Source: Marinimicrobium hydrolyticum (GTDB lineage Bacteria; Pseudomonadota; Gammaproteobacteria; Pseudomonadales; Cellvibrionaceae). Taken from it: a stretch of DNA of 64,000 nt. The notes under the pieces are model-generated. The model had not been told where the DNA came from and ran no database searches. It saw only the letters and a list, made by a program, of their open reading frames with translations. This document shows, piece after piece, positions 39,331 through 41,904 of this stretch. The stretch is taken from assembly GCF_030848505.1 (NCBI RefSeq), contig NZ_JAVDDU010000009.1:1-64000 (forward strand). The letters are read 5' to 3'. Both the position numbers and the translations under genes were made by a program. Numbering within the stretch: the stretch's first letter is position 1; every line of letters starts with the position of its first letter.

Positions 39331-40752
39331 ATGAAGCAAGATTCGTCTCAGGTACCCTCGCAGGTAGCCTCACTGGATAAAGACGCTTACGCCACCACCG
39401 ACGCCATCATTTCGCCCGTAGGCCAGCTCAAAGTCCTGTCCAAACTCGAAGTGGCGAAACTGCTCGACGCCAGTCAGAGTGGCCTCTACACCCTCTTTCG
39501 CAGTTGTGCCCTGGCGGTATTGAATTGCGGCAACTACCTGGATGACGGTAAGGAGCTGCTGGAGCGCTACCAAGATTTTTCCATCAGCATTTTACAGCAG
39601 GAAAGAGGCATAAAGCTGGACGTTCGCGGCGCTCCGGCGAGCGCCTTTGTGGACGGAAAGATGATTCGCGGGATCAGTGAACATCTGTTCACCGTACTGC
39701 GCGACGTGCTCTACGCGAGTTCCGAAATACAGGGCAACCCGCAGTTCGACATGAATACCACGGAGGGCATCACTGACGCCGTATTCCACATGCTGCGCAA
39801 CGCGGACCTGTTACGCTCGGGCGTGGAGCCACGCGTCGTAGTGTGCTGGGGTGGTCACTCCATCAGCCGGGAAGAGTACGACTACACCAAAGTGGTGGGC
39901 TACCATATGGGCCTGCGTGGCCTGGACATTTGTACCGGCTGCGGCCCTGGCGCCATGAAAGGGCCCATGAAAGGCGCCACCATCGGCCATGCCAAGCAAC
40001 GCATACCCAACGGCTGGTATCTGGGCATCAGTGAGCCGGGCATTATCGCCGCTGAGGCTCCTAACCCGATCGTGAATCAATTGATCATTATGCCCGACAT
40101 TGAAAAGCGCCTGGAGGCGTTTGTGCGCACCGGTCACGGCATTGTTGTGTTCCCGGGCGGTGCGGGCACGGCGGAAGAAATTCTGTACATTCTGGGCATA
40201 TTGCTGCACCCGGACAACCGGGACATCCCCTTCCCCTTGGTTTTCACCGGTCCTGCGAGCAGCGCCGAGTATTTTAACCGCATCAACGAATTTATCGGTC
40301 AAACCCTGGGGCTAGAAGCTCAAAGCCGCTATAAGATTATTATTGACGATCCAGCACAGGTCGCGCGAACCATGCTGGACGGCGTCACGCGAGTGCGGGA
40401 ATTTCGGAAAAACACCAATGATGCCTTCCATTTTAACTGGCAGTTGAAGATCAGCCCGGACTTTCAGCAGCCGTTTATCCCCAGCCACGAGAATATGAGC
40501 GCCTTGGAGCTGCATCAGAATCAAGAGCCCCATGTGCTCGCCGCCAACCTGCGACGCGCCTTCTCCGGCATTGTTGCGGGCAACGTGAAAGACGAGGGTA
40601 TACGCGCCATTGAAGAGCACGGCAACTTTGAAATCCATGGCGACAGGATCATTATGGAGCCCATGGACGAACTGCTGGCGTCCTTTGTCGCCCAACATCG
40701 GATGAAATTGCCGGGGCGTGCCTACGTGCCCTGCTACAAAATCGTCCGCTAG
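39331..40752 (+). CDS. ppnN: Pyrimidine/purine nucleotide 5'-monophosphate nucleosidase
   Basis: 473 aa, close to the E. coli YgdH/PpnN length plus a short N-terminal extension. It hydrolyses nucleoside 5'-monophosphates to base and ribose 5-phosphate, a step in nucleotide salvage and a (p)ppGpp target in E. coli. The LOG-family core is visible as CTGCGPGAMKGPMKG and VVFPGGAGTAEEILY. The N-terminal block ISPVGQLKVLSKLEVAKLLD and the C-terminal region identify the PpnN subgroup rather than short LOG proteins. Confidence 0.93.
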   Translation: MKQDSSQVPSQVASLDKDAYATTDAIISPVGQLKVLSKLEVAKLLDASQSGLYTLFRSCALAVLNCGNYLDDGKELLERYQDFSISILQQERGIKLDVRGAPASAFVDGKMIRGISEHLFTVLRDVLYASSEIQGNPQFDMNTTEGITDAVFHMLRNADLLRSGVEPRVVVCWGGHSISREEYDYTKVVGYHMGLRGLDICTGCGPGAMKGPMKGATIGHAKQRIPNGWYLGISEPGIIAAEAPNPIVNQLIIMPDIEKRLEAFVRTGHGIVVFPGGAGTAEEILYILGILLHPDNRDIPFPLVFTGPASSAEYFNRINEFIGQTLGLEAQSRYKIIIDDPAQVARTMLDGVTRVREFRKNTNDAFHFNWQLKISPDFQQPFIPSHENMSALELHQNQEPHVLAANLRRAFSGIVAGNVKDEGIRAIEEHGNFEIHGDRIIMEPMDELLASFVAQHRMKLPGRAYVPCYKIVR

Positions 40753-40796: not shown

Positions 40797-40814
40797 TGTA
40801 GTCAATGTCTCACA
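40797..40814 (+). promoter_or_regulatory. GacA/UvrY-like upstream activating site for the small RNA
   Basis: TGTAGTCAATGTCTCACA matches the known GacA/UvrY-family box TGTAAGNNATNNCTTACA at 11 of 14 specified positions, including both outer TGT/ACA halves and the central AT. It lies about 60-75 bases before the inferred start of the GGA-rich RNA, a spacing seen for rsm/csr small RNA genes. No gacA or uvrY gene is in the window. Confidence 0.6.
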
Positions 40815-40872
40815 AAAAGAATGGACAGTCGCCACTAGGCGACTCCCTGGTAGTGGGGGAAAATACTTACCA

Positions 40873-41070
40873 CATGGAGGTGACACAGTGAGTACACTGG
40901 CCAGGACGGCCAATGGATGCGCCCTCTCCCGTCGGGTCAGGAAGAGCCATGGATGTGAAGACTGGGGAGCGGTAGTGGTCATGGAGCGGGCAGGACGCCC
41001 ATGGGACTGCACAAGATTTAATGGATAGATATCTGGGGGCCGGGAAACCGGCTCCCACCCTTCTTTTTTA
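40873..41070 (+). ncRNA. Candidate CsrB/RsmZ-family CsrA-sequestering small RNA
   Basis: About 198 nt, non-coding, on the plus strand. Five ATGGA motifs (40874, 40913, 40949, 40981, 41021) and three CAGGA motifs (40902, 40938, 40991) fit the CsrA/RsmE binding core; a further GGA is at 40966. Two CAGGACG motifs sit in hairpin loops: TGGCC-AGGAC-GGCCA (40898-40912) and GGGC-AGGAC-GCCC (40988-41000). The ATGGA motifs fall mostly between hairpins. The 3' end is a strong intrinsic terminator. An AATACT at 40862-40867 is a possible -10. These RNAs titrate the translational repressor CsrA/RsmA. The 5' end is inferred, not seen. Confidence 0.75.
41034..41069 (+). terminator. Intrinsic terminator of the small RNA, GNRA tetraloop
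   Basis: A 10-bp stem (41034-41043 with 41048-41057, one G-T wobble) is capped by the tetraloop GAAA and followed by CCC and TTCTTTTTT (41061-41069). It stands alone, about 280 bases after ppnN, which argues for a dedicated transcript upstream of it. Confidence 0.88.
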
Positions 41071-41148: not shown

Positions 41149-41904
41149 TTAGAAGTTTTCCTGCAAGTACCGTCTTGCTAAGCGGGAGGCATCACTGCCA
41201 TCGCCAGCCACTTCCTGTAGCAACTCTTGCGCGCGACTGTTATTGCCCATGCGGTGGTAGACGGTGCCCAGCTTGAACTTGGTGTCAGACACTTTGCGAT
41301 CACGGGGGAAGTCTTTCAACAGCCGACTGAACCACTCCTGAGACTTTTCCAGATCATCCTTCAACAGGAAGATCTCGCCCAGCCAATAGTAACTGTTACC
41401 CGCGAAATTGCCTTTGGGGTACCGCTCCAAATAGGCATTGAAAGCCTCAATGGCTTCATCAACGTTGCGGTCCCGCAACAGCTGATAGGCCGCACGATAG
41501 GCTTCGGTTTCCGCGTTGCTGCCCGCCGTCGAACCTTGTGAAGGTGCGGAGGAGCCGCTGCGCTGTGCAGAGCCGTTGGCATCGCCCCGGGAGCTGCTTC
41601 TGGCACCCTCGGTCAACAGACTTAACCGGCGATCCAAATCCAGATAGTCGTCCATCCGCTGCTGCTGGAGACGATTAATTTCGTGGGACTGTTCTTCCAC
41701 CATGCCACGCAGCATCTGCACTTCTTCCTGCAGAGCCTGCAGCTGGAAAAACAGCTCCATCTGAATATTTTGCGCGTCGTCAGAAGGGGCGTTGGTATTC
41801 GCCACCCCAGTACGGACAAGGGGCCGAGATTCCTCGACCCTGACTTGCGCTTCCAGAACTGGAGCCGCTGCGATTACCGCAGCGGCCAACATGAGTTTAT
41901 ACAT
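41149..41904 (-). CDS. cpoB: Cell division coordinator CpoB (YbgF)
   Basis: 251 aa periplasmic protein. Signal peptide residues 1-19 (MYKLMLAAAVIAAAPVLEA). A coiled-coil trimerisation segment follows at about 45-85 (QLQALQEEVQMLRGMVEEQ), then a Ser/Gly-rich linker, then TPR repeats from about 130 (AYRAAYQLLRDRNVDEAIEA; NSYYWLGEIFLLKDD). CpoB links TolA with peptidoglycan synthesis at the septum. Last gene of the tol-pal cluster, five bases after pal. Confidence 0.93.
   Translation of the reverse strand: MYKLMLAAAVIAAAPVLEAQVRVEESRPLVRTGVANTNAPSDDAQNIQMELFFQLQALQEEVQMLRGMVEEQSHEINRLQQQRMDDYLDLDRRLSLLTEGARSSSRGDANGSAQRSGSSAPSQGSTAGSNAETEAYRAAYQLLRDRNVDEAIEAFNAYLERYPKGNFAGNSYYWLGEIFLLKDDLEKSQEWFSRLLKDFPRDRKVSDTKFKLGTVYHRMGNNSRAQELLQEVAGDGSDASRLARRYLQENF

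Follow-up and report, generated by a model that had tools for sequence, protein, structure and literature searches.

Whether the gap between ppnN and cpoB in Marinimicrobium hydrolyticum holds an RNA gene, and of what kind, is the question raised by a dense cluster of A(N)GGA motifs at this locus. An earlier note on the window (the whole 64,000-nt stretch that was analysed) had read the gap as encoding the Csr/Rsm sponge RNA of this organism. From sequence analysis, we put the probability that the gap holds a real CsrA-sponge RNA gene at roughly 0.9. The small RNA (sRNA) is most likely an unannotated, previously unrecognised representative of a known regulator class, with two or more further RNAs of this kind in the genome, so the assignment was supported but the claim that it is the organism's only such RNA was wrong. 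The reading rests on the anatomy of the stretch, a GacA box at the spacing of rsmY, conservation in four genera, compensatory stem changes, and the presence of CsrA, GacS and GacA. The coordinates of all features are given in Table 1.

Table 1. Features of the ppnN-cpoB locus (window coordinates) and, in the last three rows, of other loci in the genome.
Feature	Position	Strand	Remarks
ppnN (nucleotide 5'-monophosphate nucleosidase), upstream neighbour, co-directional	39331..40752	+	Pfam PpnN_C 2.4e-58
GacA-type palindromic upstream activating box	40797..40814	+	TGTAGTCAATGTCTCACA
Putative -10 element GAAAAT	40859..40864	+	44 nt past box; aligns with GATAAT/CATAAT of relatives
CsrA-sponge sRNA candidate	40871..41069	+	Predicted start (+/- 3 nt); end taken from terminator
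GGA-loop hairpin 1	40898..40912	+	TGGCC-AGGAC-GGCCA; stem covaries among relatives
GGA-loop hairpin 2	40988..41000	+	GGGC-AGGAC-GCCC; retained in same-genus homologue
Intrinsic terminator	41034..41069	+	GAAA tetraloop and T tract
cpoB, downstream neighbour, convergent	41149..41904	-	Pfam TolA_bind_tri 1.3e-13 and TPR matches
Second sponge candidate	L282 ~1632-1950 (G000:C28:175631-175950)	+	Box TGTGGCAGATTTCCTACA; GC-rich terminator GGGGCCGGCCCTTGGGGTCGGCCCC
Third, shorter sponge candidate	L283 ~1681-1486 (G000:C23:84180-83985)	-	Box TGTGCGACATGTCTCACA; strong terminator
gacA, followed by uvrC	G000:C5:69032-69673 (L159 1465-2148)	+	

The stretch carried five ATGGA motifs (40874, 40913, 40949, 40981, and 41021) and three CAGGA motifs (CAGGACG near 40902 and 40991, CAGGAA near 40938) on the forward strand. 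These are the counts claimed earlier for about 160 bases, and all eight A(N)GGA motifs fell within about 152 nt (40874-41025). The density of 8 per 200 nt was the highest among 200-nt intervals on both strands of the 64 kb, where the mean was 1.0 and no other interval reached 8, and dinucleotide shuffles of the stretch gave P = 0.003 for eight A(N)GGA motifs. The plain GGA count was unexceptional for the composition (11 vs. 7.8 expected in shuffles, P = 0.065), and the overall fold of the stretch was no more stable than that of shuffles (z = -0.96). Because GGA count and folding energy are unremarkable alone, the case for a sponge RNA must rest on the further evidence below. The same two values would also fit a stretch of intergenic DNA that is purine-rich by chance and merely ends in an ordinary terminator. 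That explanation retains scarcely any probability, as the conservation of box, leader, and GGA motifs across genera refutes it already, and the compensatory stem changes and the GacA box described below also stand against it.

Both CAGGACG copies lay inside perfect hairpins (GGCC-AGGAC-GGCC and GGGC-AGGAC-GCCC), as had been claimed, with a predicted unpaired probability of about 0.9-1.0 for the two loop GGAs; the other motifs were not all unpaired. The earlier note had also placed the ATGGA motifs mainly in single-stranded segments between hairpins, and the predicted fold bore this out in part, with some ATGGA motifs partly paired. The GNRA-capped intrinsic terminator that it described was found as GGGGGCCGG-GAAA-CCGGCTCCC followed by CCCTTCTTTTTT. 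Every forward-strand frame was interrupted in the stretch, in agreement with the reported lack of a coding frame, and likewise in the same-genus homologue. Frames of 63 and 79 amino acids on the antisense strand might suggest an sRNA that is peptide-coding or acts mainly by base pairing (Hfq-type), with CsrA binding secondary. However, these antisense frames were broken in the same-genus homologue, neither sequence had an open sense frame, and box, leader, and GGA motifs were constant between genera while RNA length varied from 197 to about 430 nt (approximate end points), which makes a role of this kind highly improbable.

The strongest clue, overlooked in the earlier note, was the GacA-type box TGTAGTCAATGTCTCACA, which forms the core of the sequence upstream of the sRNA (TTTTTGTAGTCAATGTCTCACAAAAAG). 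It resembled the published GacA site TGTAAG-N6-CTTACA (PMC4950607), agreed with a Pseudomonas rsmY box at 14 of 18 positions, and was the sole match without mismatch to TGTARNNNNTGTCTYACA in the 4-Mb genome. A looser search found a second palindrome in the genome (C23:52156), which had no GGA cluster. The distance from the start of the box to the first ATGGA was 77 nt, compared with 76 nt in a true Pseudomonas RsmY gene, and the spacing from box to -10 element was 44 nt, compared with 43 nt in Pseudomonas rsmY. Exact-type boxes were present in 16 of 144 family genomes (reversed control pattern, 0) and mostly preceded multi-GGA intergenic stretches. At three loci (L142, L157, and L158) GacA-type boxes had no GGA cluster downstream and may be direct GacA targets; since such boxes occur, a box alone is no proof of a sponge RNA. 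Four loci of genus g9 (L143, L147, L148, and L150) carried a different class of GacA-box RNA, which forms AGGATG hairpins and was not matched by Rfam.

The promoter also bears on a second explanation, in which the GGA-rich stretch is the 3' UTR of ppnN, acting as a terminator region or as a local CsrA site on the ppnN mRNA, with no separate sRNA. The stretch does follow ppnN in the same direction with no terminator found between them, and RsmW is a published sponge derived from a 3' UTR (PMC4950607). We nevertheless consider a ppnN 3' UTR decidedly unlikely, given that a conserved box and -10 element at constant spacing belong to the stretch itself and that the unit of box, leader, and GGA motifs was found at loci other than ppnN in further genera, as well as at two more places in this genome.

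For the sponge RNA, conservation was assessed in the DNA 3' of ppnN in 67 genomes of the same family, 30 from four genera (g1, g9, g14, and g20) and 37 from others. The RNA family was delimited by box and synteny because DNA similarity was weak past genus level. A box (diverged in some) followed by 7-18 A(N)GGA motifs per 200 nt was found downstream of ppnN in 29 of the 30 genomes, with G023 the lone exception, so that the GGA motifs, whose loss in relatives had been named in advance as evidence against a sponge RNA, were kept. The 37 genomes of other genera showed no box and no GGA cluster after ppnN, with at most 5 A(N)GGA per 200 nt, and one genome each of g18, g31, g2, and g12 had boxes and GGA stretches of varying richness at loci other than ppnN. 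The gene order ppnN-RNA-cpoB, judged by eye from the cpoB end, was retained in g20 and in one or more genomes of g14. GGA number and length varied across the four genera while the promoter-leader layout was constant, with a near-constant distance from box to first GGA, and the leader consensus ACARGGAsGTagACAgkGA...GGCCAGGAAaGGTCAAnGGAnGCGCC was common to six genera. The leader model had no match at ppnN in named genomes, among them those of Pseudomonas, Massilia, and Halomonadaceae.

The arms of hairpin 1, which carries the second GGA, stayed paired among relatives with changed sequence (TGGCC/GGCCA, GGGCC/GGTTC, TAATC/GATTA, and AAATC/GATTT). Pairing was scored with hand-defined loops and a shuffle control because MAFFT did not align the arms of this short hairpin in structural register. 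We observed 42 of 45 pairs compared with 36.2 after re-dealing the 3' arms (P = 0.0014), a result inflated somewhat by choosing the best-pairing hairpin in each sequence. RNAalifold on the whole 15-sequence alignment gave little net covariation (-0.5) because the GGA-rich linkers are poorly alignable. The covariation that the earlier note had proposed to look for in the ppnN-cpoB gap was seen in the hairpin 1 stem. The hairpin 1 loop was AGGAN in most sequences; in structures of RsmE, the bound high-affinity RNA forms a hairpin whose loop is ANGGAN (PMC7652899). In several relatives the loop was AGGCAA, without GGA, so not all GGA sites have been retained.

No Rfam model matched the stretch at its gathering score, including the three suggested in the earlier note, CsrB (RF00018), PrrB_RsmZ (RF00166), and RsmY (RF00195), and also CsrC (RF00084). 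The highest score, 17.4 bits, came from RsmY (E = 0.069 when 701 bases were searched), whose cut-off is 57. Rfam likewise gave no match at the gathering score in 13 loci bearing related RNAs. The sRNA shares with Pseudomonas RsmY the box and -10 spacings given above, repeated A(N)GGA motifs, and a GC-rich terminator, but RsmY is 118 nt compared with about 200 nt here, lies at another locus, and has box half-sites TGTAAG/CTTACA in place of TGTAGT/CTCACA. The sRNA is like RsmZ/PrrB and RsmX in the placing of its eight A(N)GGA motifs, some in linkers and some in hairpin loops, and P. protegens RsmZ has eight GGA motifs and a published sponge mechanism (PMC13287468). The locus differs, as had been remarked, with ppnN-cpoB here and the rpoS/fdxA region in pseudomonads (PMC4353343). 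The enteric CsrB and CsrC appear to be the same kind of molecule, but they have no sequence match to the RNA here, which is far shorter. The size of CsrB is approached by longer relatives (about 360-430 nt, L170 and L186). Both CsrB and CsrC are CsrA antagonists driven by UvrY/GacA (PMC7652899). By score the sRNA falls outside the Rfam CsrB, RsmZ, and RsmY families, and by its anatomy and promoter it would work like them.

We built a model, R1, from 27 boxes and leaders with no Pseudomonas sequence included. R1 matched loci in genus g84 (another family of the same order) to which the Rfam RsmY model gives about 126 bits, and it thus served as a positive control, since a Pseudomonas-free model recovered an experimentally known sponge class, mainly via box, promoter, and first GGA block. 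In the same genome R1 found a second candidate on C28 (E = 3.4e-15), upstream of a GNAT acetyltransferase gene, with 10 A(N)GGA motifs and its own terminator, and a third on C23 (near 84179, E = 2.6e-5), with 8 A(N)GGA motifs, which adjoins MotB and PilZ genes downstream of both and is similar to short RNAs of other genera (L296, L297, and L299). The genome thus has at least three copies, and others beyond the reach of R1 may remain; several relatives had three or more. Azotobacter vinelandii is likewise described as having more than one GacA-dependent sponge RNA, namely rsmZ1-7 and rsmY (PMC4824345), whose sequences and loci differ from those here (compared by description). A stretch of about 7 kb in another genome (L291, G059:C1:718500-726900) contained three multi-GGA RNA genes with GacA boxes that were nearly identical to one another, apparently through recent local multiplication.

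In the mechanism we propose, GacS would phosphorylate GacA, which would bind the palindromic box and switch on a promoter with its start near 40871. Transcription would stop at the terminator and yield a free-standing non-coding RNA of about 200 nt. Several A(N)GGA motifs exposed on this RNA, of which two or more lie in hairpin loops, would bind CsrA dimers. The RNA would titrate CsrA off its target mRNAs so that CsrA-repressed genes are translated, presumably acting jointly with at least two further sponge candidates of the genome. The sRNA would then be a missing part of the Gac-Csr circuit for a bacterial group in which the papers searched describe no such RNA; a literature search that covered few subscription papers found no report of such RNAs naming Cellvibrio or Microbulbifer. 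The Rfam RsmY, RsmZ, and CsrB models appear to overlook clear members beyond pseudomonads and enterics, and the conserved promoter signature with the 27-sequence alignment could seed a new Rfam family.

The genome encodes a single CsrA of 64 amino acids, a GacS/BarA-type hybrid sensor, and GacA. Residue 54 of GacA, the predicted phosphorylation site D54 (PMC2699552), was Gly (GGT) here and Asp in all 14 readable relatives, the same genus included. This points to a gac-mutant isolate, a base error in the codon, or a GacA that works differently. Activation of the sRNA by GacA in this isolate is doubtful on the basis of this residue, and Gly54 predicts low expression, with the sRNA possibly poorly transcribed. 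It seems unlikely that the combination of at least three GacA-box sponge RNAs with a GacA that cannot be phosphorylated at residue 54 reflects a Csr switch fixed in the off state or run by an altered, phosphorylation-independent GacA. The identity of the RNA is unaffected by Gly54 of GacA.
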